Positions 1,435 to 17,843 of a stretch of 64,000 nucleotides of DNA are shown in pieces. Location: contig JAIQFC010000010.1 of assembly GCA_020073465.1 (NCBI GenBank), positions 124,001 through 188,000 of the forward strand, read 5' to 3'. The DNA is from Terriglobia bacterium (GTDB lineage: Bacteria > Acidobacteriota > Terriglobia > Terriglobales > Acidobacteriaceae). Numbering within the stretch: the stretch's first letter is position 1; each line of letters opens with the position of its first letter. The notes under the pieces were generated by a model, which searched no databases, was not told where the DNA came from, and saw only the letters and a list, made by a program, of their open reading frames with translations. Both the position numbers and the translations under genes were made by a program.

Positions 1435-3411
1435 GTGGCTGGGTGGAGTTACACAGCCACGCGTTCGGCTCGGGGCTCAGTGCAGGCGGTTTGGTTGGTC
1501 TTTTCCCTGTGGTTGTTTCTGGCAGCGGCGGGCGCGCAGATCTCTCCCGGACCGTTGTCGAGGCCGCATCAATCACTCAATGGATCGACCAACTGCGCCA
1601 GTTGCCACAAGTTCGGCGGCGGGCAGGCGGCGCTGAAGTGCCTGGACTGCCATACGGAAATTGCCACGCGGCTCAGTGCCCGCAAGGGACTGCATGCGAC
1701 TTACAACATCCCTCCCGGTTCCAGCCAGGAGTGCGCGCGCTGCCACTCGGAACATAATGGCGAGGACTTCCCGCTGATTAAGTGGGACATCAAAACCTTC
1801 GACCACAAGCCGACTGGATATCCGCTTCTGGGCAAACACGCGGGCCTGACCTGCAATCGCTGTCACACGCCGGCGCGCATCAGTCCGCAAGAACGCTCCA
1901 CCATCAAGATCAAAGACCTGAACCGGACTTATCTGGGATTGGGGACGACTTGCGCGACCTGCCACCAGGATCCCCACAACGGACGACTGGGGCAGACCTG
2001 CCAGCAGTGCCACAACTTCGAAGACTGGAAGGCCATCAGCGTCGGCCAGTTCGATCACTCGAAGACGCGCTATCCGTTGACCGGACTGCACGCTCAGGTG
2101 GAGTGCGCGAAGTGCCATACGCCGGGCCCTGACAACAAGCCGCGATACACGGGAATTCCGTTCAACCAGTGCTCGGACTGCCACAGGGATCCGCATCGTG
2201 GAAGCTTCCCGCAGGGATGCCAATCCTGCCACAACACCTCGGGCTGGAAGAAGGTCTCACTCACCGCCGTGAATGAGCGCTTCGACCACTCGAAAACCAA
2301 GTTTCCCCTGCAAGGGAAGCACGTCAGCGTCGATTGCGCCAAGTGCCACGCCAATGGCGACTTCAAGAAGCCCCTGGTCTTCGCGAAGTGCATGGATTGT
2401 CACAAGCCCGATCCGCACAATGGGCAGTTTGCCAGGCGGCCGGATCACGGCGAGTGCGCTTCCTGCCACACAGTGAACGGGTGGAAGCCGTCGACGTTCA
2501 CTGTCAAGGAACATGCGACCAGTGCGTATCCGCTGCAGGGCGGGCATGCTCGGGTGGAGTGCATGCAGTGTCACATCCCGAAAGGGAAGGACACGCTATT
2601 CAAGATCAAGTTTGCGAGCTGCACGGACTGTCACAGCGACCGTCATGCGGGGCAGTTTGTTGCCGCGCCCTACTTCAACGCTTGTGACCTCTGCCACAAC
2701 CTTGAAGGGTACAAGCCGTCCACGTTTACCCTGGTGCGTCACAAGGAGACGCACTTCGTCCTGACCGGAGGCCACGTTGCCGTGCCGTGCGCCGACTGCC
2801 ACAAGGAGTCGGCGGAGTTTCAGCCGAAACCGGCGGTGGCCTATCACTGGAGAGATTTGACTTGTACCAGTTGCCATGCGGATCCCCACAAGGGGCAGTT
2901 CAAAGAACGCATGATGCAGGTGCGGGCGGACAAGACTGTTGCAGGGTGCGAGGCGTGCCACTCTACCAAGTCGTGGAAGGACTTGACCCGATTCGATCAC
3001 TCGAAGACTACGTTCCCGCTGCTGGGAGCGCACCGGGCAACGGCTTGCATGGACTGCCACAAGCCACCGAACCTCGAAACCAAGCTAATCAATGTTGATT
3101 TCAAGGCGGCGCCGACTCAGTGTGAAGATTGCCATGAAGACATCCACGGCAAGCAATTCTCCAAGGGAGAGGTTACGCGCTGCGTCGACTGCCACAACAC
3201 CATGAAGTGGAGACCCTCGCTCTTCGATCATGAGCAAAAGACGGCATTCCCGCTGCGGGGGGCGCACCAGAACGTGCGCTGCGCCGACTGCCACAAGCTG
3301 ACGAAGCTCGTCAACGGGAAGACGGTGCTCTTCTACAAGCCCACACCGAAAGAGTGCGCAGCTTGCCATGGGCCCACGAATCCAGTGCCCAGTCAAAAGC
3401 CGCGAGCGTAG
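1435..3411 (+). CDS. Secreted multihaem c-type cytochrome, 23 CxxCH motifs
   Basis: A signal peptide (hydrophobic WLVFSLWLFLAAAGA core preceded by two Arg) exports the protein. The mature part holds 23 CxxCH haem-attachment motifs, so it should be a periplasmic or outer-surface electron carrier with up to 23 c haems. The protein is built of about seven degenerate units of the form FDHSKTxFPLxGxH...CxxCH, followed by DPHxGxF and CxxCHxxxxW, in the style of cytochrome c3/doubled-CxxCH families. The start is uncertain: the frame is open from ATG 1303, but GTG 1435 gives a normal signal peptide with a positive n-region, while GTG 1480 would leave it without charge. It heads a co-directional gene set with a second, larger cytochrome, a beta-barrel protein, a b-type cytochrome and a flavoprotein, which suggests trans-envelope electron transfer. 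I do not assign a named family member. Confidence 0.9.
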   Translation: MAGWSYTATRSARGSVQAVWLVFSLWLFLAAAGAQISPGPLSRPHQSLNGSTNCASCHKFGGGQAALKCLDCHTEIATRLSARKGLHATYNIPPGSSQECARCHSEHNGEDFPLIKWDIKTFDHKPTGYPLLGKHAGLTCNRCHTPARISPQERSTIKIKDLNRTYLGLGTTCATCHQDPHNGRLGQTCQQCHNFEDWKAISVGQFDHSKTRYPLTGLHAQVECAKCHTPGPDNKPRYTGIPFNQCSDCHRDPHRGSFPQGCQSCHNTSGWKKVSLTAVNERFDHSKTKFPLQGKHVSVDCAKCHANGDFKKPLVFAKCMDCHKPDPHNGQFARRPDHGECASCHTVNGWKPSTFTVKEHATSAYPLQGGHARVECMQCHIPKGKDTLFKIKFASCTDCHSDRHAGQFVAAPYFNACDLCHNLEGYKPSTFTLVRHKETHFVLTGGHVAVPCADCHKESAEFQPKPAVAYHWRDLTCTSCHADPHKGQFKERMMQVRADKTVAGCEACHSTKSWKDLTRFDHSKTTFPLLGAHRATACMDCHKPPNLETKLINVDFKAAPTQCEDCHEDIHGKQFSKGEVTRCVDCHNTMKWRPSLFDHEQKTAFPLRGAHQNVRCADCHKLTKLVNGKTVLFYKPTPKECAACHGPTNPVPSQKPRA

Positions 3412-3818
3412 CGCTCCGGACGTCTTGCTCATTGCGCGTTGCACCGTTGTGCGCCTGCAGTTCTAAAACCTCTGGGAGAAGCCTGGAGCAAGTCCTGGCG
3501 TATATCTTGGAGTCAATCACCGATATCTCTCTGGGCAGGGGCAGTTGCCCACTTTCTGTACGTCGTCAAGATTTCTTAACGCCCTCCGTCCGAAGAAAAA
3601 AGTGCAGGCAACGCGCAGAACTTACCTTTGACTCCTAGTAATACTGAACTTGGTGGGAAATGGAACAATGCACGAGGCGGCGTTACTGGCAGGGCCTTGC
3701 GTAACTTTGTACGGGGCATGCGGCCGTCTACCCTGTGTGGACTGCTAATTGCATCACTCGTCTTAAATTTTCTTTACTGGTTTTCTAATGCTGTAGGGAC
3801 TGAGTAAGGGGCAGGTCA
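3412..3818. other. Intergenic region between the two giant cytochromes
   Basis: This 407-base gap contains no convincing ORF or tRNA. It is long enough to hold an independent promoter for the second cytochrome; a sigma-54-like element at 3738-3753 is the only candidate signal I saw. Confidence 0.4.
3738..3753 (+). promoter_or_regulatory. Candidate sigma-54 (-24/-12) promoter
   Basis: TGGACTGCTAATTGCA has GG-N10-GC spacing and an intact TTGCA -12 element, but the -24 half is only partly consensus (TGG then ACT instead of CAC). It ends 66 bases before the start of the 31-haem cytochrome. The neighbouring kinase has an NtrB-like H-box, which would fit a sigma-54 pathway, but no activator gene is visible. 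Confidence 0.25.
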
Positions 3819-6221
3819 ATGTTGGCGTCTGGGGGCGTACTCAATCTAGCTGCAGTACTGCTACTGACGTTGTCCGGATCTCCGGCACGGCCGCAGGCCT
3901 CCGGAGGTACACACAGTCCGCACGGCAATCTGAACATTCCCTGCCAGAACTGCCACACGGCAAGTGCGTGGAGGCCGATCCGCGCCGTTCCAGAGTTCGA
4001 TCACAATCAGACCCGATATCCCTTGCGCGGTATGCATCAGTCTGTCACCTGCGTGCAGTGCCACGTAAAGCCCGTGTTCACGAACGTCGGGCAGCGCTGC
4101 CAGGATTGCCACGCCGACATTCACAAGCGGCAACTGGGTGCGAACTGCGAGCAGTGCCACACAGTACGGGGATGGCAGGTCTCGATTCAGCAGGTGCAGC
4201 AGCACAATAACCGTTTTCCGCTGACCGGAGCCCACGCGGCAGTCGACTGCGATTCCTGCCACAAGGGGGCGGCCAACAGCAAGTTCCAGACCATGTCGAC
4301 GGACTGCTATTCGTGCCACTCGGCAGACTTCAAGAGTGCGAGCAATCCGAATCACATCTCGGGCAAGTTCTCGATCACTTGCGAGCAGTGTCACGGGACG
4401 GACAGCTGGCTGAACGCGAAGTTCGATCATTCCGCGACAGGCTTTCCCTTGACCGGAGGGCACGCGGTGCCGCCGGCACAGTGCACCGACTGTCACGTCA
4501 ACAATAACTACAACCTTACAAGCACGGCTTGCGTGTCGTGCCATTTGAAAGACTTTCAGGGCACGACGAACCCGAATCACGTCTCGGCAGCCTTCCCCCA
4601 AACTTGCGAGCAGTGCCATACCACAGCGGCGTGGTCTCCGGCCACGTTCGACCACAGCACGGTCAACTTTCCGCTGACTGGATCGCATTCCGTGCCGCCA
4701 CGGCAGTGCACGGAATGCCACGTCAACAACAACTACAACATCACGACGACAACGTGCGTTTCGTGCCACTTGAAAGACTTCCAGGGCGCGACCAACCCTA
4801 ACCACGTGCAGGGCGGGTTCGCGCAGACTTGCGAACTCTGCCACAACACGACCGCGTGGCAGCCTGCGACCTTCGATCACTCCAAGTCCGCATTTCCATT
4901 GACCGGATCGCACACGGTGCCGCCGCGGCAGTGTGCGGATTGCCACATCAACAACAACTACAACATCACCAGCACGACGTGCGTTTCGTGCCACCAGAAC
5001 GATTACAGCAATGCGGTCAGCCCGGTGCCACACGCAGGTTTCTCTACGGCGTGCCAAACCTGTCATGACACGGTGGCGTGGATCGACGCGAAATTCGACC
5101 ATTCCACTGTGGGCTTTACGTTAACCGGATCGCACATGGTGCCGCCGCGGCAGTGTGCGGATTGCCACATCAACAACAACTACAGCCTGAACAGCACGGC
5201 GTGCGTTTCGTGCCACCTGAAGGATTTTCAGGGTACGACCAACCCGAATCACGTTACATCGAATTTCCCGCAGACTTGCGAGCAGTGCCATAACACGACG
5301 TCGTGGCTCAATGCTGTCTTCGATCACAGCAGCACGGGATTCCCGCTGACCGGATCGCACACGGTGCCGCCACGGCAGTGTACGGATTGCCACGTCAACA
5401 ACAACTACAACCTCACCAGCACGGCGTGCGTTTCCTGCCACCAGACCGACTACAACAACGCAGTCAGCCCGGTCGCCCATGCCGCAGCTGGCTTTCCGAC
5501 CACTTGCGAGACCTGCCACGACACGGTGGCGTGGACTGACGGCAAGTTCGATCACAACACGACGGGCTTCTCCTTGACCGGGCAGCACACGGTGCCGCCG
5601 CGGCAGTGCATCGATTGCCACGTTGGGAACAACTACAGCCTGAACAGCAATGCCTGCGTCTCGTGCCACCTGAAGGATTTCAACGGCACGACGAACCCGA
5701 ATCACGTGACCTCGGGATTCCCGCAGCAATGCGAGCTGTGCCACGACACCATCACGTGGACGGATTCAACGTTCAACCATAACAACACGACATTCCCGCT
5801 GACCGGCTCGCATACCGTTCCGCCACGGCAGTGCGCGGACTGCCACGTCAACGGCAACTACACGACGCTCCCGACGGCGTGCATTGGCTGCCACCAGACG
5901 GACTACAACAACACCACCAATCCCGGACATAAGGCCCAGCCGCAGTTCTTCCCGACGACTTGTCAGAATTGCCACAGCACCACGAACTGGCTGAACGCGA
6001 CCTTCAATCACACGCAGTACACGCAGTTCCCGACCAGTCACGGGAACGCGAATAACGTGTGCTCCACGTGTCACACGAATTCGAATGACTACTCGATCTT
6101 CCAGTGCACGAACTGCCACTCGAAGTCCCAGGCGGACTCGAATCACCAGGGCGTGAAGGGGTATGTGTACAACAGCATTAACTGCTACCAATGCCATCCC
6201 AGTGGGAACGGTGGTGGTTAA
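3819..6221 (+). CDS. Secreted multihaem c-type cytochrome, 31 CxxCH motifs in tandem tri-haem modules
   Basis: The 800-residue protein starts with a hydrophobic signal sequence and carries 31 CxxCH motifs. The first ~210 residues resemble the upstream cytochrome. From about residue 217 the protein becomes a strikingly regular array: seven modules of 74-76 residues, each containing FPLTGxHxVPPRQCxxCHVNNNYN, a CVSCH, and a CxxCHxxxxW followed by FDHS, so three haems per module. Its C-terminus has three more haem motifs after a degraded unit (NVCSTCH, CTNCH, CYQCH). Such extended modular chains are known from haem wires that carry electrons across or outside the outer membrane. The very high module similarity suggests recent internal duplication and possibly variable length between strains. 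It lies directly upstream of the beta-barrel gene. Confidence 0.9.
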   Translation: MLASGGVLNLAAVLLLTLSGSPARPQASGGTHSPHGNLNIPCQNCHTASAWRPIRAVPEFDHNQTRYPLRGMHQSVTCVQCHVKPVFTNVGQRCQDCHADIHKRQLGANCEQCHTVRGWQVSIQQVQQHNNRFPLTGAHAAVDCDSCHKGAANSKFQTMSTDCYSCHSADFKSASNPNHISGKFSITCEQCHGTDSWLNAKFDHSATGFPLTGGHAVPPAQCTDCHVNNNYNLTSTACVSCHLKDFQGTTNPNHVSAAFPQTCEQCHTTAAWSPATFDHSTVNFPLTGSHSVPPRQCTECHVNNNYNITTTTCVSCHLKDFQGATNPNHVQGGFAQTCELCHNTTAWQPATFDHSKSAFPLTGSHTVPPRQCADCHINNNYNITSTTCVSCHQNDYSNAVSPVPHAGFSTACQTCHDTVAWIDAKFDHSTVGFTLTGSHMVPPRQCADCHINNNYSLNSTACVSCHLKDFQGTTNPNHVTSNFPQTCEQCHNTTSWLNAVFDHSSTGFPLTGSHTVPPRQCTDCHVNNNYNLTSTACVSCHQTDYNNAVSPVAHAAAGFPTTCETCHDTVAWTDGKFDHNTTGFSLTGQHTVPPRQCIDCHVGNNYSLNSNACVSCHLKDFNGTTNPNHVTSGFPQQCELCHDTITWTDSTFNHNNTTFPLTGSHTVPPRQCADCHVNGNYTTLPTACIGCHQTDYNNTTNPGHKAQPQFFPTTCQNCHSTTNWLNATFNHTQYTQFPTSHGNANNVCSTCHTNSNDYSIFQCTNCHSKSQADSNHQGVKGYVYNSINCYQCHPSGNGGG
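4467..5990 (+). repeat. Seven in-frame tandem repeats of about 225 bases inside the 31-haem cytochrome
   Basis: The GTGCCGCC core of the VPPRQC motif (GTTCCGCC in the last copy) occurs at 4467, 4692, 4917, 5139, 5364, 5592 and 5817, giving spacings of 225, 225, 222, 225, 228 and 225 bases, all multiples of three. Each unit encodes a 74-76 residue tri-haem module. The period creates a long spurious antisense ORF. Confidence 0.85.
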
Positions 6222-6311
6222 GGCCCTGAAGTGGGCACATACGTGCTCAATCAGGATCAGGTAGCAAATTTTCCGGCGGGCATGTGGAGCGCCAGCGAGT
6301 GATAACAGAGA

Positions 6312-8939
6312 ATGATGGCGGTTCAGAAACATGTTGCGACGTGGATGATCCTGTTGTCGTGTGCCGCGGCTCAGAACACGGCCGGGACAGCCACGGTTCA
6401 GGACGTCGCAGTGGCTCGAGTAGGAACAGATTTGCGGATCGAAGTGACGCTCAGTTCGGCGGTGAAGCCTTCGGTTGAGACTGCGATCCATCCTGACCGG
6501 ATTCTGCTCGATCTTCCAGACACCATCTGCACGGATAAGACCAGGAGAGTCGACGTTCACTTCAACGGCGTGCGCCGGGTGCGCACCGGGCAGCATTCGA
6601 CTAGCCCTCTTGTCACGCGCGTGGTCCTTGATCTGGACCAGTCCAATCCCTATAGCGTCAGAGTGGAGGGGAACCGCATCATTCTGGTCGTTAGTCCTGC
6701 GACGGACGCGCGGAGAGTTCGTTCCGGTGCGCCAGCGGCGGCGACGTCCGGAAGTCTGATCGGAATCTTCCGCCGCAGGCAGGAAACGCTGGCTCCGATT
6801 GCGGAGGACAATTCGCCTGCTCCTGCGGAGCCCGTTCCTCCGCCCGGCACGGCTGCAGCGCCTGCGGGTGTCGCGACAGGTTCGTCTGCAACAACGCTTC
6901 CTTCGGGGACAGAGACAGCCCCTACCCCGCCTGGGCCAGCGGCGACCGGTTCAACGGAAGGCTCTACCGCGCAGGGATCGTTCACCCAGAATCAGATTGC
7001 GGCGAACACCGGTGGGAGGAACTCCGCGCCGGTTGCGGCTGCGACTCTCCCATCGGCCGTTGCGTCTCCGGCCGCGACCCCGAAGCCGGCCGCGGAGGCA
7101 CCCGCGCCCGCGACTCCGGTTGCCAGTCCGGCGCCCGCTACTGCCGAAGCAACGGCAGACGTTTCTCCAACTGCTGCCCCGAAGCCGGCTGACGCCGACG
7201 AGGGTGGAGGCGCAGTGGTGTCGCCCGCGCCCTCGGCTCCGCCTGCCACTCCAGCACGCACAGCAGTTGAGGCGACCACCATGATTGCCCGAATGGATGA
7301 CCCGAGCCTGCACACCGTCTTCAAGGTAAAATATGTCGCGGAAGGCGTGGCGTACCTGGATGGAGGCAGGGCCCAGGGGCTGACCGAGGGCATGAAACTG
7401 GTGGTCCAGGACAGCAACCTGCCCGCAAAACAGGGCGACAGCGTCGATGCCGCTGATCCGAAAGTGGTAGCCGAGTTGGAGGTGAGTGCAGTTGCGGAGA
7501 CCTCCGCTGTGACGGACATCCACACGCCCAAGCGTCCGGTGAAGGTGGGAGATCTGGCATACCTGTCGAGCAGTGACGCCGCTGCACTGGTACAGCAGCG
7601 GGCATTGAGCGCAACCCGTCAGTACCCGGCGGTGATCTCGTTCACAGAAGGCGACACGCTGGATGAGGAAGCCCGCCAGGAAGTGCCCCGGCCGCCCTTG
7701 CCTTCGGTGAACCGCGCCCGTGGCCGTATCGGGCTCGACTACATGGACACCATCAGTCACGGCTCGACCAGCATGACGAGCTCCGATGTGGGCGTGGTGT
7801 TTCGTGGCGACATCACGCGCATTGGCGGTACCTACTGGAACTTGAGCGGTTACTGGCGCGGCCGGCTGACCAAGAGTTCTGCAGCCAGTCAACAGACACT
7901 GCAGAACCTCATCAACCGGACGTATCACCTGAGCATGACCTACGACAATCCGAACTCAAGCCTGGTCGCTGGTTTTGGCCGCCTGTATCTTCCGTGGGCG
8001 CCGAGTCTCGACACCATCGACGGAGGGTATTTCGGAAAAAGACTCAGCAAGGGGACCACGCTCGGAATGTTTGGCGGCTCTACGCCTGATCCTTCATCGT
8101 GGGACTACAGTCCTGATCGCGTCATTGGCGGCGCCTTTGTTAATTTTGATGGCGGTGCGTATGACGGCTTTCACTACAGCAGTACCTTCGGCGCCGGAGC
8201 CAGCCTGTTGAAGTGGCAGATGGACCGCCCTTTCGTCTTCTTTGAAGATTCGTTCTCATACGGACGGCGCTTTGCTGTGTACGAGTCCGCGCAACTCGAC
8301 GACCCCAAGGGAAATACCGTCGCCCTCTCACCGGGGCCGGGATTGGGGCGCAGCTTCTTTACTCTGCGCGTCCAGCCGCATCCCCGGGTGGAGATCGATT
8401 TCAACCACAACTACTTCCGCGATATTCCGACGTTTGACCCTACGCTGATCAGCGTGGCTCCCGGCCTCCTGGACAAGTTCCTGTTCCAGGGATTCAGCGC
8501 GGGAGGCCGGGTCGAGGTGATGAAGCAAGTTTTCGTCTCGACGAACCTGGGTCGAAGCAGCCGAACGGGAGATGCGACGTCGTCGCTGAACGAGATGTTC
8601 GGTCTCACATACGGACGGCTTCCCTGGGTGCACCTGCGGGCGGACGCGCACTATGCGCGGTTCAACAGTTCCTTCGGGAGCGGATCGTACGAGGCGTTCT
8701 CGCTCTCGAAACAGTTCTCCGACAACCTGCGGCTGGAAATGCTGGCGGGACAACAGAACTTCACCTCTGCGGTTACGACGAACAGCCGGGGGCGGTTTCT
8801 GACGGGAACGGTGGAGACCACACTCGGCCCCCATTACTACCTGCAAGGCAGCTTCACTACGAACCGCGGCCAGCTGAGTTATGACCAGTTCATGTTCTCG
8901 CTCGGCTACCGCTTCGATTCGAAGAAGCATAAAGAATGA
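6312..8939 (+). CDS. Outer-membrane beta-barrel protein with N-terminal AMIN domain
   Basis: After a signal peptide, residues about 22-130 form an AMIN-type domain (VARVGTDLRIEVTLSS ... PDRILLDLPDT ... VRRVRTGQH ... TRVVLDLD), a fold usually found in secretins and cell-wall amidases, where it binds envelope structures. A Pro/Ala-rich linker of nearly 180 residues follows (about 143-320). Next comes a small domain around 322-425 with a GVAYLDGGRAQGLTEGMKL stretch, as in SH3-like domains of envelope proteins. The last ~400 residues alternate in polarity with many aromatic strands and end in FSLGYRFDSKKHKE, which suggests a transmembrane beta-barrel. Its place directly behind two giant cytochromes suggests the role that MtrB/PioB-type porins play in porin-cytochrome conduits, though I see no sequence relation to MtrB. 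It overlaps the next gene by ATGA. Confidence 0.8.
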   Translation: MMAVQKHVATWMILLSCAAAQNTAGTATVQDVAVARVGTDLRIEVTLSSAVKPSVETAIHPDRILLDLPDTICTDKTRRVDVHFNGVRRVRTGQHSTSPLVTRVVLDLDQSNPYSVRVEGNRIILVVSPATDARRVRSGAPAAATSGSLIGIFRRRQETLAPIAEDNSPAPAEPVPPPGTAAAPAGVATGSSATTLPSGTETAPTPPGPAATGSTEGSTAQGSFTQNQIAANTGGRNSAPVAAATLPSAVASPAATPKPAAEAPAPATPVASPAPATAEATADVSPTAAPKPADADEGGGAVVSPAPSAPPATPARTAVEATTMIARMDDPSLHTVFKVKYVAEGVAYLDGGRAQGLTEGMKLVVQDSNLPAKQGDSVDAADPKVVAELEVSAVAETSAVTDIHTPKRPVKVGDLAYLSSSDAAALVQQRALSATRQYPAVISFTEGDTLDEEARQEVPRPPLPSVNRARGRIGLDYMDTISHGSTSMTSSDVGVVFRGDITRIGGTYWNLSGYWRGRLTKSSAASQQTLQNLINRTYHLSMTYDNPNSSLVAGFGRLYLPWAPSLDTIDGGYFGKRLSKGTTLGMFGGSTPDPSSWDYSPDRVIGGAFVNFDGGAYDGFHYSSTFGAGASLLKWQMDRPFVFFEDSFSYGRRFAVYESAQLDDPKGNTVALSPGPGLGRSFFTLRVQPHPRVEIDFNHNYFRDIPTFDPTLISVAPGLLDKFLFQGFSAGGRVEVMKQVFVSTNLGRSSRTGDATSSLNEMFGLTYGRLPWVHLRADAHYARFNSSFGSGSYEAFSLSKQFSDNLRLEMLAGQQNFTSAVTTNSRGRFLTGTVETTLGPHYYLQGSFTTNRGQLSYDQFMFSLGYRFDSKKHKE

Positions 8940-9757
8940 TGCGACGAATACAAATTGGAAACCTTCTGCGGGTCAGCACGTGGGCCGTGATTGCCACGGC
9001 CAGCCTGTGCTTTGCGGGAAATTCTCCTGCCTCATCCGATGCGCAGAAGTTAAATGACCTTCTACGTCGCACCGGCGACCAGACTTCCGCATTTCTCGAC
9101 CAGTTTTCAGACGTGAAGTGCACAGAACACGTGCGGCAGGAGAAGCTTGGCAAGGACGACAAGATCGAACTGAAAGAAGAATCCACATACGACTACCTGG
9201 TCATCTTGACGAACGCCGGGGGAGAACTGAACCTCTCTGAGTCCCGCTTGCCCGTGCACGAGGCGAAGCGGGACCGCAAGAACACGTCGATGCTGCTCAG
9301 CAACGGATTTGCCACGCTGTTCCTGGTGTTCCATCCTTACTACGCAGAGGCTTTCAAGTTCACGCTTGCCGGAGAGGAAGTAGTCGGCGGCCGCTTGTTG
9401 GATAAAGTCACGTTCCAGCACGTTCCCGGGATGAAGTCGCCTGCGGCTCTGGCTCTGCGCGGGCGCGAATATCCCCTGGAACTTACCGGGGCGGCATGGA
9501 TTGATCCGGAGAGCGGCACCATCGCAAGAATCGAGGCTGGTATTGAAGACACGTTGCAGGATGTTGGGCTAAAGTCTCTGCATTCGGAGATCGAGTTTGC
9601 CCCCCTGCCATTTGGGGACTCAAAACCGGTGTACTGGTTTCCAACGCAGGCCAGCGTAGAGGTCGAAACCCCCAGACAGCACTGGCGTAACTTGCACCAG
9701 TTCACGGAATACAAGAAGTTCTCAGTAAGTACAGAGGAGAAGGTGACCAGCCGATGA
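8936..9757 (+). CDS. Secreted protein of unknown function in the cytochrome operon
   Basis: The 273-residue product begins with an Arg-rich n-region and a hydrophobic segment ending near CFAGNSPASS, so it is probably exported (lipoprotein processing is possible but the box is weak). The rest is a soluble domain with many short beta-strands, including a WIDPESGTIARIEAG motif that resembles outer-membrane-lipoprotein-sorting (LolA/LolB-like) folds often seen in acidobacterial secreted proteins. No catalytic motif or haem site is visible. It is translationally coupled on both sides: its ATG overlaps the stop of the barrel gene and its stop overlaps the ATG of the b-cytochrome gene. It may therefore be an assembly or accessory factor for the conduit. 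An alternative start is the adjacent ATG at 8939. Confidence 0.75.
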   Translation: MMRRIQIGNLLRVSTWAVIATASLCFAGNSPASSDAQKLNDLLRRTGDQTSAFLDQFSDVKCTEHVRQEKLGKDDKIELKEESTYDYLVILTNAGGELNLSESRLPVHEAKRDRKNTSMLLSNGFATLFLVFHPYYAEAFKFTLAGEEVVGGRLLDKVTFQHVPGMKSPAALALRGREYPLELTGAAWIDPESGTIARIEAGIEDTLQDVGLKSLHSEIEFAPLPFGDSKPVYWFPTQASVEVETPRQHWRNLHQFTEYKKFSVSTEEKVTSR

Positions 9758-10710
9758 GCGCGAATGCCACAGCCACCGCCCGAATTGCCTCCACTGCATC
9801 CGCGGCTGTGCCGGATGCGGAGAGACGCCATCGTGTGCGGCTTTATGCCTTGTACGTTCTGGCGATCGCCATCAATTTGGCGATCTTCATCTACGGATTC
9901 GACTACTACAAGCTGTCGGCTATGGACCGGCCGTTTTCTCCAAAGCACCACCTTCTGCGCCCGAGCGGTCCGATAGGGCTGTATCTCGGATTCTTCGGCG
10001 TGGCTCTGTTTGTCGGCATCTTCCTTTATCCGATTCGCAAGCACTGGCCATGGCTGGCGACGATTGGAAACACCCGCCACTGGCTCGATATCCACATCGT
10101 GATGGGGCTGACAGCCCCGGCGATCATCGCCTTCCACTCCACCTTGAAGTTCAAGGGGCTCGCAGGCATGGCGTTCTGGATCATGTTTGCGGTTTCTGCC
10201 AGCGGAGTAGTCGGACGATATCTCTATGGGCAAATTCCACGCAAGGTAACCACCGCTGAATTATCGATGCGGGAGTTGCAGGACTTGCAGGCGCAGCTGT
10301 CGCAGCAACTGGCCGCGCAGAACCTGCTGCCGGAAGCCGACCTGCGGGCTCTGTTGCGGCTTCCCGACGCAAACCGCGTGGCGCGCCTGCCCATCGTAGT
10401 GGCGATCATCTACATGATGCTGCTCGATGTGGCCCGGAAGTTCCGCGTGGCTCGGCTCCGCCGCCATGCGCTGAGGGGCAGTGCATTCTTGACTACGCTG
10501 GCTGGGTTCCTGCCCACGAGGCACCGCGCGGTCGAGCGGGCGATTCATGCCGCTGCGGAAGAGGCCGCCCTTTCCAAGAGAGTCCTGTTCCTTTCACGGT
10601 CGCAAAAGGTCTTTCATCTGTGGCACGTCGTGCACAAGCCTTTCAGTTATGCCTTCGCTGTGCTGGCCTTGATTCACATCGGACTGCAGTTCGTTCTGGG
10701 ATACTTCTGA
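9754..10710 (+). CDS. Membrane b-type cytochrome-like subunit
   Basis: This 318-residue membrane protein has about five transmembrane helices (around residues 27-49, 70-90, 108-128, 137-157 and 290-315). Histidines fall in or at the edges of helices (WLDIHIVMG, AFHSTLKF, FHLWHVVHKPF, LIHIG), a pattern expected for two b haems in a cytochrome b561/FdnI-like bundle. A charged cytoplasmic loop rich in Gln and Leu (about 165-265) separates the last helix from the others. It overlaps the preceding gene by ATGA and is ten bases from the Fe-S flavoprotein, so the two probably form an inner-membrane module passing electrons between NAD(P)H or ferredoxin and the periplasmic cytochromes. The direction of flow cannot be read from the sequence. 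Confidence 0.75.
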   Translation: MSANATATARIASTASAAVPDAERRHRVRLYALYVLAIAINLAIFIYGFDYYKLSAMDRPFSPKHHLLRPSGPIGLYLGFFGVALFVGIFLYPIRKHWPWLATIGNTRHWLDIHIVMGLTAPAIIAFHSTLKFKGLAGMAFWIMFAVSASGVVGRYLYGQIPRKVTTAELSMRELQDLQAQLSQQLAAQNLLPEADLRALLRLPDANRVARLPIVVAIIYMMLLDVARKFRVARLRRHALRGSAFLTTLAGFLPTRHRAVERAIHAAAEEAALSKRVLFLSRSQKVFHLWHVVHKPFSYAFAVLALIHIGLQFVLGYF

Positions 10711-10720
10711 GCTCACAGCC

Positions 10721-12106
10721 ATGGACTCACTGATCACATTCGGGATTGCGGCGGCCATCACCCTCTTCTTCGTTGTCAGTTACCTGAGGAATCTGAAGAA
10801 GAGAGATACCCGTGCGCGCGAAGCGGCAGAGAAGGGAAAGCTGTTCTCTGACGGCCCCAGAGCCCAGCATCCGCATATCGACACCAATTACTGCATTGGC
10901 TGCGCGACCTGCACCACAGTTTGTCCGGAGGGTGATGTGCTGGCGATGATCGCGGGCAAAGCCGTGATCGTGAACGGGCACAAGTGCATCGGCCACAGCC
11001 TTTGTGCGGATGCGTGTCCAGTCGGTGCGATCACCATGGTCATGGCCAGCCCCAGCATGGGTGCGGACATGCCATTCCTCACACCGGAGCATGAAACCAC
11101 CATTCCTGGTCTGTTCATCGTCGGCGAATTAGGGGGCCTGGCGTTGATCAAGAACGCGGTGAACCAGGGACGCGATTGCATCGACACGATATCGCTCCGG
11201 CTGGGGAGAAATCCCGCTGCTCGGGCGACAGACGGGGTTTACGACGTCCTTATCGTCGGAGCCGGGCCGGCGGGGATCAGCGCTTCGTTGCGGGCCATTG
11301 AAAACAAGCTTAGCTACATCACCCTGGAGCGAGATGAAGTGGGCGGCACCGTGGCGAAATATCCGCGCCAGAAGTTGGTAATGACCAGCCCGGTGGAATT
11401 TCCCATGTACGGGAAGTTCAAGAAAATGCAGCTCTCGAAGGAGAATCTGCTCGCGTTTTGGGACATGGTGTTGAACCGGGCGGATTTCAACGTTTCCACC
11501 GGAGAGAAAGTCGAAGACATCAAGAAGGGTGAAGACAGCATCTTTACCATTCTAACGGTGAACAATGGATACCGCGCGCGACACGTGATCCTGGCCCTGG
11601 GACGCGCCGGCGAGCCGCGCAAACTCGGCGTCAAGGGTGAGGAACTGCCCAAGGTGATGTATCGCCTGATCGAAGCCGACCACTACATCAACAAGAAGAT
11701 TCTGGTGGTTGGCGGGGGCGACAGCGCAGTCGAGGCTGCCATGGGGCTCGCGCACCAGGCCGGCAACCAAGTCACGCTCTGTTATCGTGGAGAGCACTTC
11801 AGCCGCATTAAGGAGCGAAACTCGAAGCGGATGGAAGACTGCATGCGCACGGGCAAGGTCAAGGTGCTCCTTCAGACGAATCCGGTTGAGTTCAAGGCGA
11901 GTTCGGTTATTCTCGACGCAAAGGGTGCGCAGCAGGAGATTCCGAACGATTTCGTGTGGATTTTTGCGGGCGGGATACCTCCGAATGACTTCCTGAAGAA
12001 GGTCGGCGTGGGCTTCGGACAACGCGACGTGACGCTGGAGGCCAGCAAAGAAGCTAAACAGGCTGAGACTTCCCGCAAGCAGCTTGCTCAAGCTGCAGCG
12101 CGCTAG
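10721..12106 (+). CDS. Membrane-anchored ferredoxin-domain/FAD/NAD(P) oxidoreductase
   Basis: The 461-residue protein starts with one membrane helix (residues 4-22), then a two-cluster ferredoxin domain (about 50-110). Cluster one is canonical, with Cys58, Cys61, Cys64 and Cys68. Cluster two reads Cys89, His92, Cys95, Cys99, with His where the second Cys is expected. A thioredoxin-reductase-like flavoprotein follows: an FAD GxGxxG (VLIVGAGPAGIS, near 169-180), an ERDEVGGT segment, and a second Rossmann motif VVGGGDSAVEAA for NAD(P). The CxxC redox pair of thioredoxin reductases is absent, so electrons most likely pass between NAD(P)H, FAD and the Fe-S clusters. Sited ten bases after the b-type cytochrome gene, it looks like the cytoplasmic end of the conduit. 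It is the last gene of the set. Confidence 0.85.
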   Translation: MDSLITFGIAAAITLFFVVSYLRNLKKRDTRAREAAEKGKLFSDGPRAQHPHIDTNYCIGCATCTTVCPEGDVLAMIAGKAVIVNGHKCIGHSLCADACPVGAITMVMASPSMGADMPFLTPEHETTIPGLFIVGELGGLALIKNAVNQGRDCIDTISLRLGRNPAARATDGVYDVLIVGAGPAGISASLRAIENKLSYITLERDEVGGTVAKYPRQKLVMTSPVEFPMYGKFKKMQLSKENLLAFWDMVLNRADFNVSTGEKVEDIKKGEDSIFTILTVNNGYRARHVILALGRAGEPRKLGVKGEELPKVMYRLIEADHYINKKILVVGGGDSAVEAAMGLAHQAGNQVTLCYRGEHFSRIKERNSKRMEDCMRTGKVKVLLQTNPVEFKASSVILDAKGAQQEIPNDFVWIFAGGIPPNDFLKKVGVGFGQRDVTLEASKEAKQAETSRKQLAQAAAR

Positions 12107-12190: not shown

Positions 12191-12240
12191 GTCATCCTGA
12201 GCACAGCCGCTTTTCAGGCGGGGCGAAGGATCTTGCGCGC
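12191..12240. repeat. Possible dispersed intergenic repeat (GTCATCCTGAGC ... GAAGGATCTTGCGCG)
   Basis: The stretch GTCATCCTGAGC, a GC-rich spacer, then GAAGGATCTTGCGCG resembles a short extragenic element that I recall as common in acidobacterial genomes. Only one copy is in the window, so repetition cannot be shown here. It overlaps the most upstream possible start of the following methyltransferase ORF, which argues for a later start there. Confidence 0.3.
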
Positions 12241-13057
12241 ATGCACCGCAACCTGCACTCACAGCTTCTTGACTCTCTGCGCCCCGTCGGCACCACCGAA
12301 TGAGTGTCGTAGAATTGAGCTCTTGCTTCCTCCTGCCGAATCAGACCGCCTGCGCGTTGTTCTGGTGAATGCGCGCAATCCTCTCAACATCGGCGCGGCC
12401 GCTCGTGCCGTGAGCAACTTTGGGTTTCACCGCTTGCGGGTGGTGAATCCGTTCGAAGCAGCGTTTCGCGAGGCTCGTTCTGCGGTAGGGGCAGCCCGTG
12501 TGCTCGCCGAGGCGGAGCAGTACGGTAGTGTGGCCGAAGCGGTAGCCGACTGTGCGTTCGTCGTAGGAACTACGGCGGTACGGCATCGCGAGTTGCTGCA
12601 TCCGTTGCGAAACCTTGATGGGGATGCCGGCAAGATCATCCGTGAACAGCTCCAATCTGCTCCGGTTGCGCTATTGTTTGGTTCCGAGAAGGTGGGGCTG
12701 TCGAATGAAGACCTCAGTCATTGTCACTGGCTGCTGCACATTCCTACCCGTGCAGAGCACATCTCGATGAACCTGGGGCAGGCCGTGGCGGTCTGTCTTT
12801 TTGAATTGACAAGGGCAACCACGCCTGACAAGACCGCAGAAGAGTCCACGTGGGCGACGGCGGGCGAGACCGAGCGCCTTACCGGAGCTCTGCTCCAAGC
12901 ATTGCACGCCAGCGGCTACATAACGCGGGAGACGGAGGTCTTCACTGAGGAAAGAGTACGCCGTTTGATCCGTAGGCTCAGTCTGCGGTCGGGGGACGCC
13001 GAGGCCTTGCTCGGCATGCTGCGGCAGATTCTGTGGAAGTTGAAATCGGAAGAATAG
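12233..13057 (+). CDS. TrmJ/TrmH-family (SpoU) RNA 2'-O-methyltransferase
   Basis: The protein shows the SpoU methyltransferase signature: motif 1 VVLVNARNPLNIGAAARAVSNFGF, which contains the catalytic Asn-Arg region, motif 2 VALLFGSEKVGLSNEDL, and motif 3 HIPTRAEHISMNLGQAVAV, the trefoil-knot SAM-binding part. About 90 C-terminal residues form a helical extension as in TrmJ, which methylates position 32 of tRNAs. The substrate cannot be fixed from sequence. The frame opens at TTG 12233, but conserved sequence begins only near codon 37, and the first codons overlap a repeat-like element; TTG 12269 or TTG 12323 are plausible real starts, none with a good ribosome-binding site. It stands alone and converges on the pseudokinase gene. 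Confidence 0.85.
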   Translation: MRACTATCTHSFLTLCAPSAPPNECRRIELLLPPAESDRLRVVLVNARNPLNIGAAARAVSNFGFHRLRVVNPFEAAFREARSAVGAARVLAEAEQYGSVAEAVADCAFVVGTTAVRHRELLHPLRNLDGDAGKIIREQLQSAPVALLFGSEKVGLSNEDLSHCHWLLHIPTRAEHISMNLGQAVAVCLFELTRATTPDKTAEESTWATAGETERLTGALLQALHASGYITRETEVFTEERVRRLIRRLSLRSGDAEALLGMLRQILWKLKSEE

Positions 13058-14483: not shown

Positions 14484-15926
14484 CTAGCTGGCTCGCAGCG
14501 AGAAATAGAAGACAGAGCCCCGTCCGACCTGGCTGCGGACCCCGATCGTGCCCCCGTGCAATTCGATGATCGCCTTCGCGATGGCCAAGCCCATTCCGGT
14601 GCCCTGGATGGTCGTTCTCTGGTTCCTGCCCCGATAAAACTTCTCAAAGACCATGTCCTGTTCCATGTCGTCGATTCCCGGCCCGTGGTCAGCGACGCTA
14701 GTGACCACCTCGCCGCCGGGGCCGAGTTCCGCGACCACGTGAATGGGAGTGCCGGACGGAGAGTATTTGCCGGCATTCTCCAGCAAATGAACGAGGACCT
14801 CCGAAATCCGTTCAACGTCCATCTTGATACGGGGCAAATTGTCGGGCGCCTTGACCTCAACCGGGTGGTGTTGAAGCGCCTGCCGTGTGGCCTGCATTGC
14901 GGAATCGACGGCTTCGCGAATCGAGTGCGGCTCGAAATGGAATTCGAGCTGGTGAGAGTCCAGTTGCGCAACTTCAGCCGCTTCTCCGATGAGGCGATTC
15001 AGGCGGTCGCCTTCCTCGTTAATGACGGTGAGCAATTCGTGGGCTTGGGCTTTCTCAAGGTGAGCGTCTGAGAGCAGCGTTTCCGCAGAGGCTTTGATCG
15101 CCGTGAGAGGCGTGCGAAACTCGTGTGTCACCGAATCGAGCAGAACCGAACGAAGCCGGTCGCTTTCCCGCGCCGCCTCCGCGCGGGTTAACTTTTCGAC
15201 GGTGTGGGCACGCTCGATGGCGATTGCCGCCAGGCTGCCAATGGCTTCCAGCGTTTCGCGCGAAAGACCGCATCCGGCAAGCCCAACCGCGCCAACCGAA
15301 CGTACTCCCATTCTTAGCGGCATGAAACAGATGCGGTGCTCGCGATCCAGCACGGGTTCTCCACGGCTGCTGATTGCTTTTAGCTGTTCGGTGGGGAATA
15401 GGGACTGGCTTGCAGTATCGTAAAAGTACGTTTGCTTGCCGTCGACGAACATCGCTGCGCTGCTCACGTCGAAGGACTCAACAACGTATTTGGGGATGGA
15501 GTTCAGGAGTCCGTAAACATTGTCGCTTACCAGCAATTGCTGGCTGAAGGCGTAGAGACGCTCGACCTCGTTTCGGCGCTCGTCTGACTCTCGCGCTTCC
15601 CGGCGAGCACGGTCAGAAAGGTCGCTGGCAACAACCGCCGTGAACAGGAATGCGAACAGCGCCAACCAATTCTGCGGATCGTCAATCGTAAACTGATGCA
15701 GAGGAGGCAGAAAGAAGTAGTTGTATCCCAGAGTAGCCAGCACCGCGGTAAAGATCGCGTAACGGAGTCCCCAGACTGCCGAGATTGTGAGGATGACAAG
15801 CAGGAAAGAGAATCCCACGGTCGTAGGATTGACATGCAGCCAGCGAGAGTAGACAACGATCACGAGCGACACAATCGCGGCAGAGGCCGCGAAGCGTAAT
15901 ATCTGATACAGTGTCGCTCGTTTCAT
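14484..15926 (-). CDS. KdpD C-terminal half: DUF4118/GAF/histidine kinase as a separate protein
   Basis: This 480-residue sensor kinase corresponds to the C-terminal half of KdpD. The N-terminal ~100 residues hold the four short KdpD-type membrane helices (including the GYNYFFLPP stretch typical of DUF4118), followed by a GAF-like domain (about 125-245), an H-box SVTHEFRTPLTAIKAS (His268), and a full ATPase domain with N (HLLENAGKYS), G1 (DHGPGID), F and G2 (GTGMGLAIAKAI) boxes. The start is placed at the Met of MKRAT because upstream codons are not conserved-looking. It lacks the UspA and Walker parts of KdpD, which are encoded by the divergent gene starting 84 bases away. It probably phosphorylates the KdpE homologue at 17139. 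Confidence 0.85.
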   Translation of the reverse strand: MKRATLYQILRFAASAAIVSLVIVVYSRWLHVNPTTVGFSFLLVILTISAVWGLRYAIFTAVLATLGYNYFFLPPLHQFTIDDPQNWLALFAFLFTAVVASDLSDRARREARESDERRNEVERLYAFSQQLLVSDNVYGLLNSIPKYVVESFDVSSAAMFVDGKQTYFYDTASQSLFPTEQLKAISSRGEPVLDREHRICFMPLRMGVRSVGAVGLAGCGLSRETLEAIGSLAAIAIERAHTVEKLTRAEAARESDRLRSVLLDSVTHEFRTPLTAIKASAETLLSDAHLEKAQAHELLTVINEEGDRLNRLIGEAAEVAQLDSHQLEFHFEPHSIREAVDSAMQATRQALQHHPVEVKAPDNLPRIKMDVERISEVLVHLLENAGKYSPSGTPIHVVAELGPGGEVVTSVADHGPGIDDMEQDMVFEKFYRGRNQRTTIQGTGMGLAIAKAIIELHGGTIGVRSQVGRGSVFYFSLRAS

Positions 15927-16009
15927 AGTCCGTGCGTTGCGGAGCAGAATCTGGGTCAGGGCGATTCTAGCTGATTCGCAAAGCACCCCGTTAACAGGAA
16001 ATCCTTTGC

Positions 16010-17131
16010 ATGCCCAAAACCCCGGAACAGTGGCTGGAAGAAGCGGCCCCACAGAAGAAACAAGGCATATTCAAGCTCTTTCTCGGATACGCGCCCGGGG
16101 TAGGGAAGACCTACAACATGCTGAGTGAGGGTATTCGCCGCAACAGCCGCGGTGAAGATGTGGCGATCGGCGTGATTGAGACTCACGGACGAAAGGGAGT
16201 TGCCGATCTGGCTTCCAAGCTGGAAGCCGTACCAAAGCGCAGCATCGAATATAAGGGCACGTTGTTTGAAGAGATGGATGTGGATGCCATTCTTGCGCGC
16301 AAGCCGCAAGTAGTCCTCGTCGATGAACTCGCACACACCAATGTTGAAGGGAGCAGGCACAACAAGCGGTATGAAGACGTGATGGATCTGCTGGACGCTC
16401 AGATCGACGTGCTGTCGACGATGAACGTGCAGCATATCGAGAGCCTCATGCCGACGGTGCAGAGCATCACAGGCGTGCGTGTACGAGAGACGGTTCCTGA
16501 CTGGGTTATGCAGCGCGTCACTGAGATCGTTCTCGCTGACTTGACTCCGGAGGCGCTGCAGACTCGCATGCGCCGGGGCGATATCTACCCTGTGGAGCGG
16601 GCTGATCGGGCGCTGGGAAACTTTTTTCGTCCCGGTAATCTGATCGCCCTGCGCGAGTTGGCGCTGCAGCAGGTGACCCGGGCCGTCGACCGGAGCCTCG
16701 AATCGTATCTGGAAAAGGAGGGAGTGGGGCGCAGCGTTGGCGTCCGAGAGCGGATCGGGGTCGGCGTTAGTTCGAGCCCCGCGGCTCAGTACCTCATAGC
16801 GCGGGCAGGTCGGATGTCACAGAGGATCGACGCAGAACTATTCGTCATCTACGTCGATATTGGAGTCGATGATAATCCCCAAGATCAGCGATCTCTGGCC
16901 CAGAATATTCAGTTCGCCCAGAACCTGGGGGCGCAGATCGTGCGTACGAAAGGCAAGAGCGTCGCCGAAGAAGTAGCTAAGGTCGTGCGGGAGAAGCACA
17001 TCACACAGGTGGTCTTCGGCAGATCGGCGCAGACGGGCTGGCGCAGATATCTCTACCTCTCCGTGATCCACAAATTTCTGCGGGATGCCCCTCCCGTCGA
17101 CGTGCACATCGTGACCCAGGAAGTGAAGTGA
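16010..17131 (+). CDS. KdpD N-terminal half: Walker ATP-binding and UspA domains
   Basis: The 373-residue protein matches only the cytoplasmic N-terminal part of KdpD. It has the Walker A GYAPGVGKT (26-34), Walker B VVLVDELAHTN and the conserved NVQHIESL stretch, then a UspA-like domain (about 240-370). It ends where canonical KdpD would enter its membrane helices; no transmembrane segment or kinase domain is present. In E. coli these regions regulate the kinase in response to ATP, K+ and second messengers, so here the regulatory half would act in trans on the kinase half encoded divergently at 14484-15926. It is eight bases upstream of kdpE, suggesting co-expression with the regulator. Confidence 0.88.
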   Translation: MPKTPEQWLEEAAPQKKQGIFKLFLGYAPGVGKTYNMLSEGIRRNSRGEDVAIGVIETHGRKGVADLASKLEAVPKRSIEYKGTLFEEMDVDAILARKPQVVLVDELAHTNVEGSRHNKRYEDVMDLLDAQIDVLSTMNVQHIESLMPTVQSITGVRVRETVPDWVMQRVTEIVLADLTPEALQTRMRRGDIYPVERADRALGNFFRPGNLIALRELALQQVTRAVDRSLESYLEKEGVGRSVGVRERIGVGVSSSPAAQYLIARAGRMSQRIDAELFVIYVDIGVDDNPQDQRSLAQNIQFAQNLGAQIVRTKGKSVAEEVAKVVREKHITQVVFGRSAQTGWRRYLYLSVIHKFLRDAPPVDVHIVTQEVK

Positions 17132-17138
17132 TCTTGTC

Positions 17139-17843
17139 ATGAATGAGCTCTCTGCTCGAAGCAATATTCTGGTGGTCGATGACGAGCCGCAAATAACTCG
17201 CGTGTTGAAGACCACGCTTTCCAGCCAGGGCTATGGTGTCCGCACTGCTTCCGACGGGGACGAAGCCGTGCAAATCATGAAGGAATGGACGCCGGACCTG
17301 GTGATCACAGACCTGCGCATGCCGAACCTCGGTGGGTTGGAGCTTTGCCGGCATGTGCGGGCGAAGTCGCGGACTCCGATCATTGTGCTCTCCGTGAAGG
17401 GCGAGGAACGAACCAAGGTTGAGGCGCTCGATGCCGGAGCCGACGACTACGTCACGAAACCTTTCGGGGTTAACGAGCTTCTGGCGCGTGTGCGTGCCGC
17501 GCTGCGCAGAGCTTCGGCCCCCGATCAGGCTGAAAATTTGCTGATCGAAGCAGGAGACTTCCGCATTGACATTCCGACGCGGAGCGTTCGGGTAAAGAAC
17601 CGGGAAGTGCATTTGACGCCGAAGGAGTTTGATCTCCTGGTACACCTCGCGCGGCACGCCGGAAAAGTGCTGACTCACCGTGCCTTGCTGTCGGCGGTAT
17701 GGGGCGCAAACAGCGTGGAGCAACCCGAATATCTGCGCGTCTTCGTGGGCCACCTGCGCAAGAAACTCGAACCGGACGAGACCGCTCCCAGATACATCCT
17801 GACCGAGCCATGGGTGGGTTATCGGTTCGAGCCGGGGGAGTGA
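17139..17843 (+). CDS. kdpE: KdpE-like OmpR-family response regulator
   Basis: The 234-residue protein has a receiver domain with the acidic pair D14-D15, phosphoacceptor D58 (VITDLRMP) and K107 (VTKPFG), followed by an OmpR-type winged-helix domain (about 135-230, LTPKEFDLLVHLARHAGKVLTHRALLSAVWG ... VGYRFE). This is the KdpE architecture, and its place between the KdpD halves and kdpFABC supports the name. KdpE activates kdp transcription under K+ limitation. The likely targets are the two four-fold TTTA(T/C) arrays at 18006-18043 and 19149-19186. Confidence 0.92.
   Translation: MNELSARSNILVVDDEPQITRVLKTTLSSQGYGVRTASDGDEAVQIMKEWTPDLVITDLRMPNLGGLELCRHVRAKSRTPIIVLSVKGEERTKVEALDAGADDYVTKPFGVNELLARVRAALRRASAPDQAENLLIEAGDFRIDIPTRSVRVKNREVHLTPKEFDLLVHLARHAGKVLTHRALLSAVWGANSVEQPEYLRVFVGHLRKKLEPDETAPRYILTEPWVGYRFEPGE

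Follow-up and report, generated by a model that had tools for sequence, protein, structure and literature searches.

A six-gene porin-cytochrome cluster of probable PCC3 type in Acidobacteriota, with a putative NAD(P)H-linked route for outward electron transfer

Background

Extracellular electron transfer is known mostly from metal-respiring Proteobacteria, where it is fed by quinol, and on land the soil Acidobacteriota rank with the most abundant bacteria. The whole 64-kb stretch of DNA considered here (hereafter the window; contig JAIQFC010000010.1 of a Terriglobia bacterium, positions 124,001 to 188,000) carries six neighbouring genes on its plus strand (genes 1 to 6; window positions 1435–12106), encoding two multihaem cytochromes (MHCs), a predicted outer-membrane barrel, a secreted protein, a b-type cytochrome and an iron-sulphur (Fe-S)/FAD/NAD(P) protein. 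Do these genes specify a path for electrons between the cytoplasm and the cell surface, and if so, from which donor and in which direction would electrons move? A first-pass annotation, made from the sequence alone, had proposed that the parts could connect cytoplasmic NAD(P)H with the surface, and both the sequence and its comparison with relatives support that this could be so. We consider it probable that the six genes encode a porin-cytochrome conduit of the type named PCC3 by He et al. 2017, which comprises a porin, an extracellular MHC (median 34 haems), a periplasmic MHC (median 21 haems) and a membrane protein (PMC5566968), in an NAD(P)H-linked six-gene acidobacterial form that would pass electrons outward. 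The cofactor motifs, gene order and conservation reported below are read from the sequence, and the barrel from a structural model.

Gene layout and conservation of the cluster

The window is located on a 235-kb contig of a 5.9 Mb assembly (99.99 % complete, 0.5 % contaminated), in which cytochrome c maturation genes were also found. The CXXCH motifs of gene 1 (1435–3411; 23 motifs) and gene 2 (3819–6221; 31 motifs) sum to the 54 haem sites reported in the first-pass annotation, and its list of parts, which adds to the two cytochromes a barrel (gene 3; 6312–8939), a secreted protein (gene 4; 8936–9757), a b-type cytochrome (gene 5; 9754–10710) and an Fe-S/FAD/NAD(P) protein (gene 6; 10721–12106), agrees with the motifs, folds and profile matches. 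Where gene 1 begins is uncertain, the candidates being GTG 1303, 1435 and 1480. The last four genes had also rightly been described as coupled or nearly so, with ATGA overlaps joining genes 3/4 and 4/5 and only 10 nt between genes 5 and 6; gaps of 90 nt and 407 nt separate genes 2/3 and 1/2, respectively.

A scan with gene 5 retained eighty loci, all in Acidobacteriota. Comparative genomics, put forward in the earlier annotation as the means of finding a conserved order, did reveal one: under a strict test, all six genes occur in order on one strand in 37/80 loci, with many of the others cut by contig ends. The gene 5 region is 100 % identical at the protein level to that of the Terriglobia bacterium metagenome-assembled genome (MAG) JAIQFG010000059.1 (isolate SRVP_21), and several MAGs that bear the label Candidatus Sulfotelmatobacter are among the nearest relatives. 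In other acidobacterial classes the core (genes 1, 2, 3, 5 and 6) is found in different orders, with the 23-haem protein present in several of them. Beyond the phylum, plasmid pEMTOL02 of Emticicia oligotrophica (Bacteroidota) encodes a CcsA-type haem lyase, genes 5 and 6, cytochromes with 23 and 40 haems, a barrel homologue (9e-16) and a GW-domain protein, and lacks gene 4.

Presence is patchy, with gene 5 encoded in 9/37 genomes of the genus, that of the window included, and in 16/119 genomes of an even sample of the phylum. Such patchiness would be expected of dispensable or decaying genes that are neighbours by chance. However, the dN/dS values against orthologues, rough because dS is near saturation, range from 0.04 to 0.14 for each of the six genes, indicative of purifying selection, and the gene order is kept over a large divergence. 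As far as sequence allows, decay is thus refuted, and we regard it as extremely improbable. A sister arrangement, comprising a long gene 6-like protein, a gene 5-like protein and two decahaem cytochromes, was observed in three loci of the same phylum (L145, L146 and L148).

The membrane cytochrome and its flavoprotein neighbour

Gene 5 encodes a predicted inner-membrane di-haem b cytochrome of 318 amino acids, which incorporates two WX3HX13H motifs (W110-X3-H114-X13-H128 and W290-X3-H294-X13-H308) and an SGXXG motif (SGVVG, 150–154). Six histidines (H26, H114, H128, H291, H294 and H308) are invariant among 54 sequences, while both WX3HX13H motifs are present in 78/79 and SGXXG in 79/79 of the relatives. 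Hydropathy analysis distinguished five helices and one doubtful stretch (206–232), with five helices in the Emticicia homologue, and no relatives with solved structures were found by sequence.

Gene 6 encodes a predicted membrane-anchored cytoplasmic oxidoreductase in which a membrane helix (residues 4–22) is followed by a ferredoxin-like part and a YpdA/thioredoxin reductase (TrxR)-like part. The label Fe-S given in the first-pass annotation holds and can be refined to one four-cysteine cluster (C58/C61/C64/C68) and one cluster of three cysteines and a histidine (C89/H92/C95/C99); in the CxxHxxCxxxC motif of the latter, H92 occupies the position of the second cysteine of ferredoxins and is invariant in 69/69 sequences. 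YpdA is the nearest match to the flavoprotein part (7a7b, E 2.5e-43), although the scores are far below the curated cut-offs for both YpdA and thioredoxin reductase (168 vs 339.9 and 81 vs 343.5 bits, respectively). As encoded, its Pfam matches end short of the full models. When the segment preceding the Rossmann fold (ETTIPGLFIVGELGG...) was moved in silico to the C-terminus, the full models were covered and the scores rose from 148 to 161 bits for Pyr_redox_3 and from 90 to 104 bits for Pyr_redox_2, which argues that gene 6 is circularly permuted; the isolated FAD-end segment had no match in the PDB. An arginine beyond the second glycine motif is conserved in 68/69 sequences. In TrxR-type enzymes such an arginine goes with NADPH, and this analogy suggests that gene 6 uses NADPH.

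Gene 5 relatives also occur next to other reductases. On an Alteromonas plasmid (L108:9974-15693), one is located between a FAD/NAD(P)/2Fe-2S reductase and a cytochrome c3, with [NiFe]-hydrogenase genes alongside. Two unrelated types of NAD(P)H flavoprotein, namely gene 6 and the ferredoxin-reductase-like protein of the Alteromonas plasmids, thus adjoin the gene 5 family, which favours a role for gene 5 as an NAD(P)H gate, like those of the NAD(P)H oxidases and ferric reductases (NOX/FRE), over one as a quinone site.

One fixed and one variable multihaem cytochrome

Every cysteine in the products of genes 1 and 2 belongs to a CXXCH motif, and the histidines beyond these motifs (26 in gene 1 and 32 in gene 2) suffice for bis-histidine ligation of all haems. 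The mature proteins are haem-dense, with 27.5 (gene 1) and 24.9 (gene 2) amino acids per haem. Gene 1 contains Cytochrome_C7 stretches, while gene 2 is built from triheme repeats of ~75 amino acids and clears the cut-off of the TIGR04257 triheme domain (45.7 vs 40 bits). Searches against solved structures retrieved only a weak NrfB match for gene 1 and no relatives by sequence for gene 2.

The two cytochromes differ markedly in their constancy. Gene 1 has 23 haems in 43/44 countable loci, Emticicia included, with nearly identical haem spacing in Acidobacteriota and Bacteroidota, whereas the haem number of gene 2 spans 19 to 79 among relatives. The largest version, with 79 haems in 2015 residues, was observed in a Candidatus Solibacter MAG (L100:1453-7500). 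In 34/41 complete gene 2 frames the count is 3n+1, which fits the gain and loss of whole ~75-amino acid triheme units. On the gene 5 tree (49 loci), a single change in haem number is counted for gene 1 (23, with one locus at 21), against at least 32 for gene 2; gene 1 frames that were cut by contig ends or frame-shifted (L030 and L043) were omitted from this count, and one split into 4 + 19 (L063) was taken as 23. These change counts and the 3n+1 figures are indicative, since the loci are related and mostly derive from short-read MAGs.

Gene 1, and not gene 2, remains with genes 5 and 6 in the minimal loci L096 and L099, and with genes 4, 5 and 6 in L082 (AB60); all three lack both the barrel and a 3n+1-haem cytochrome. 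AB60 carries no MAG tag and may be an isolate. The highest covariation was likewise that between genes 1 and 5 (r 0.90 across locus pairs, uncorrected for relatedness). On both grounds gene 1 is taken as the putative periplasmic cytochrome; gene 2 is the putative extracellular one. Triheme wires extend by ~1 nm per haem (12 haems and 12 nm in GSU1996), and by analogy 23 haems would span about the width of the periplasm. The authors of the PCC3 survey relate 21–27 haems to the width of the periplasm in the same way.

The predicted barrel and the secreted protein

The product of gene 3 comprises an AMIN domain (6e-12), a long Pro/Ala linker, a small beta domain and a predicted outer-membrane barrel (residues ~468–870). 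An AlphaFold2 model derived from 57 sequences contains 22 long strands, with predicted local distance difference test (pLDDT) values mostly between 75 and 95, and superposes on 22-strand outer-membrane receptors (VIA Z 16–17, ~350 residues) as well as on OprD-type porins and ushers; no separate receptor-type plug domain is visible in the model. Neither NCBIfam matches nor sequence-level relatives of solved structure were found for gene 3. The AMIN domain and linker are absent from gene 3 in the class-level relatives L023 and L024, which identifies the barrel part as the core of the protein.

The association of the barrel with the cytochromes bears on whether the electrons would leave the cell at all. 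The barrel gene adjoins haem genes throughout the Terriglobia, in other classes and in Emticicia, and the length of gene 2 is unconstrained, unlike that expected of a part that fills the periplasm. Both observations argue against an electron reservoir or a detoxification system confined to the periplasm, in which the giant cytochromes would serve as capacitors and the barrel would be an unrelated transporter. The 12-haem, GSU1996-like triheme wires of Geobacter are regarded as periplasmic capacitors in the literature, and minimal loci without the barrel and gene 2 do exist, but on balance we consider such a reservoir improbable.

Gene 4 has a signal-type N-terminus and was assigned to the likeness of the LolA/LolB/RseB superfamily by means of AlphaFold2 and Foldseek. 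Its model (pLDDT 88) matched the LolA superfamily with a Foldseek probability of 1.00 (E 1e-6), yet with template modelling scores of only 0.37–0.43, and neither a sequence-level family match nor a relative of solved structure was found. The modelled fold suggests that gene 4 may bind a lipid or lipoprotein and aid outer-membrane assembly. Gene 4 is confined to the Terriglobia, with no copy in the other acidobacterial classes or in Emticicia.

Proposed electron route and its direction

In the proposed PCC3-type conduit, gene 6 would oxidise NADPH or NADH on the inner face of the inner membrane and pass the electrons via FAD to its two Fe-S clusters, from where they would cross the membrane via the two stacked b haems of gene 5. 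The rigid 23-haem wire of gene 1 would take them across the periplasm, the gene 3 barrel would provide the route through the outer membrane, and the variable-length wire of gene 2 would deliver them to an extracellular acceptor, for example Fe(III), Mn(IV), humics or the cytochrome of a partner. The LolA-like gene 4 protein probably aids the delivery or stabilisation of an outer-membrane part. We infer the localisation of the proteins, their assembly into a complex, the outward direction and the kind of acceptor, with the direction favoured because electrons would follow both the drop in energy from NAD(P)H and the membrane potential.

Electrons passing from the periplasm to NAD(P)+ have to climb in potential and move against the membrane voltage, and the NAD(P) flavoprotein is conserved in most loci and in a second phylum. 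Both stand against an inward flow through the same conduit, in which an extracellular donor (Fe(II), minerals or partner cells) would supply the membrane, gene 5 would feed the quinone pool and gene 6 would be a side branch or make NAD(P)H by reverse flow. We regard this alternative as unlikely, even though the published account of PCC3 concerns Fe(II) oxidisers and invokes quinones, many MHC conduits can run either way according to the literature and gene 6 is not beside gene 5 in every locus.

Several observations weigh against the outward, NAD(P)H-linked PCC3-type conduit. In eight loci (L071, L074, L078, L080, L093, L097, L101 and L105) gene 6 either is located away from gene 5 or could not be found, and a different donor may thus serve there. 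Gene 6 also falls into two divergent types (~0.4 vs 0.7–0.8 identity) within otherwise similar clusters, the gene 3 model has a predicted template modelling score of 0.61, and the assignment to PCC3 was made by description. A search of plasmids for a proteobacterial PCC3 reference yielded only the hydrogenase-linked Alteromonas and Ccm-neighbouring Methylophaga relatives of gene 5, with no giant MHC or porin annotated beside them.

A bolder proposal, which we advance tentatively and with slightly more doubt than belief, is that the permuted flavoprotein with its His-containing cluster, the two-haem gate, the 23-haem rod and the elastic triheme wire constitute, in both Acidobacteriota and Bacteroidota, a self-contained machine that carries electrons from NAD(P)H to the outside without recourse to the quinone pool. 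On this reading, iron oxidisers would have related PCC3 systems in which the flavoprotein has been lost or replaced. If the conduit operates as proposed, central NAD(P)H would be tied to the reduction of iron, manganese and humics in soil, and PCC3 would gain a concrete, testable electron donor. The pairing of a fixed 23-haem with a 3n+1-haem cytochrome makes the distinction between a periplasm-spanning and a protruding cytochrome testable by sequence and microscopy, and the cultured strain Emticicia oligotrophica DSM 17448 carries the core on a plasmid.

Non-coding elements and neighbouring genes

The 407-nt gap between genes 1 and 2 contains conserved non-coding blocks (3592–3772, plus strand), which are shared by at least 13 loci with fixed spacing and a length of 174–187 nt and include AGAASTTAC at 3617, CTTGCGTAACTTT near 3696 and AATTGCATNACT near 3755. 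No consensus RNA structure was predicted for the blocks and an Rfam search of the gap returned no match, and an RNA element was rejected on these grounds. The lack of a predicted structure makes tandem promoter or regulator sites likelier; the blocks are probably promoter or regulator sites, perhaps in tandem, and their presence in the gap means that gene 1 may be transcribed separately from genes 2–6. Scans for sigma-70 promoters and terminators yielded no more than expected by chance.

A perfect CRP/FNR-type palindrome (TGTGATCAGAATCACA; 1126–1141), whose score was reached by 0/100 shuffles, is located ~300 nt upstream of gene 1 and represents a candidate operator. Sites with one or two mismatches precede gene 1 in about five near relatives and were absent upstream of gene 1 in distant relatives, and a conserved CRP-type site was thus ruled out as a general feature. 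The window holds five further CRP/FNR-type sites with at most one mismatch.

Immediately downstream of gene 6 is a TrmH/SpoU rRNA methylase gene (12233–13057), as is also the case in several relatives (L015, L016, L018 and L019), which suggests that the cluster occupies a shared chromosomal place. Further downstream, KdpD appears, from a reading of the sequence, to be split into two divergent genes (14484–17843), with the sensor kinase part on the minus strand (14484–16052) and the KdpD/USP part on the plus strand (16010–17131), the latter followed by a KdpE-like regulator (17139–17843).

Comparison with known electron transfer systems

The cluster shares with MtrCAB/MtoAB the general idea of a porin that passes electrons between periplasmic and surface multihaem cytochromes. 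However, its cytochromes have 23 and 31 haems and are not the decahaem MtrA/MtrC, with family scores far below the cut-offs, and no match to the MtrB/PioB family (PF11854) was found in the whole genome, gene 3 included, which rules out membership of the Mtr/Mto systems. The earlier view that the genes do not resemble Mtr therefore stands, while the view that they resemble no known set does not, as the published description of PCC3 fits the features that could be tested.

Gene 5 resembles the NOX/FRE enzymes in that two transmembrane (TM) helices provide two HX13H pairs to ligate stacked b haems, and in its association with a cytoplasmic-side FAD/NAD(P) part. In contrast to those enzymes, the parts are separate polypeptides, with a YpdA/TrxR-type flavoprotein in place of the fused FAD_binding_8/NAD_binding_6 domains, Fe-S clusters between FAD and haem, and the periplasmic 23-haem cytochrome as the proposed acceptor. 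Gene 6 has the flavoprotein fold of the YpdA bacillithiol-disulfide reductases and the TrxR-like ferredoxin-NADP reductases, but adds an N-terminal membrane helix and an Fe-S domain and has the end of its FAD domain shifted to the front. Gene 2, like the Geobacter 'nanowire of haems' GSU1996, consists of triheme c7-type units chained along one polypeptide, but has 31 haems (up to 79 in relatives) as opposed to 12, a partly different unit and a location in a porin cluster.

The closest likeness is to PCC3. Its membrane protein has ~300 amino acids and five helices, with SGXXG on TM4 and WX3HX13H on TM3 and TM5, and shares its HX13H pairs with ferric reductase and NAD(P)H oxidase; the system is found in Fe(II) oxidisers, for which a link to quinones was proposed (PMC5566968). 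Published PCC3 systems have periplasmic MHCs with 21–27 haems, extracellular MHCs with 10–85 haems, 22–39 amino acids per haem (median 26) and porins of up to 42 strands. Later work treats PCC3 as an untested four-gene system, and related literature includes a survey of the Gallionellaceae (PMC10734462) and a study of Sideroxydans CL21 (PMC12442390). The cluster agrees with these descriptions in the presence of a porin gene (gene 3, with its 22-strand barrel model), in the 23 haems of gene 1, in a second, larger and variable MHC (gene 2; 31 haems, 19–79 in relatives), in the length, five helices and TM3, TM4 and TM5 motifs of gene 5, and in repeat-built cytochromes with few amino acids per haem. 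As the match is to published descriptions and not to sequences, 'PCC3-type' is used here as a description and not as proven kinship.

The differences are such that the cluster is treated as a variant. PCC3 comprises four genes in Proteobacteria, whereas two conserved extra genes (genes 4 and 6) are encoded in Acidobacteriota, with gene 4 lacking in Bacteroidota; the porin has a predicted 22 strands as opposed to up to 42, and the putative periplasmic MHC keeps a constant 23 haems. No report of PCC3 in Acidobacteriota, nor a description of any conduit of this kind in the phylum, was found in the open-access literature searched, where absence is not proof. Relative to the PCC3 descriptions, the comparison adds a fixed and variable pair of cytochromes, minimal loci in which gene 1 is kept with genes 5 and 6, and a conserved, permuted and membrane-anchored flavoprotein that points to NAD(P)H, in preference to the quinone pool, as the likely source of the electrons.

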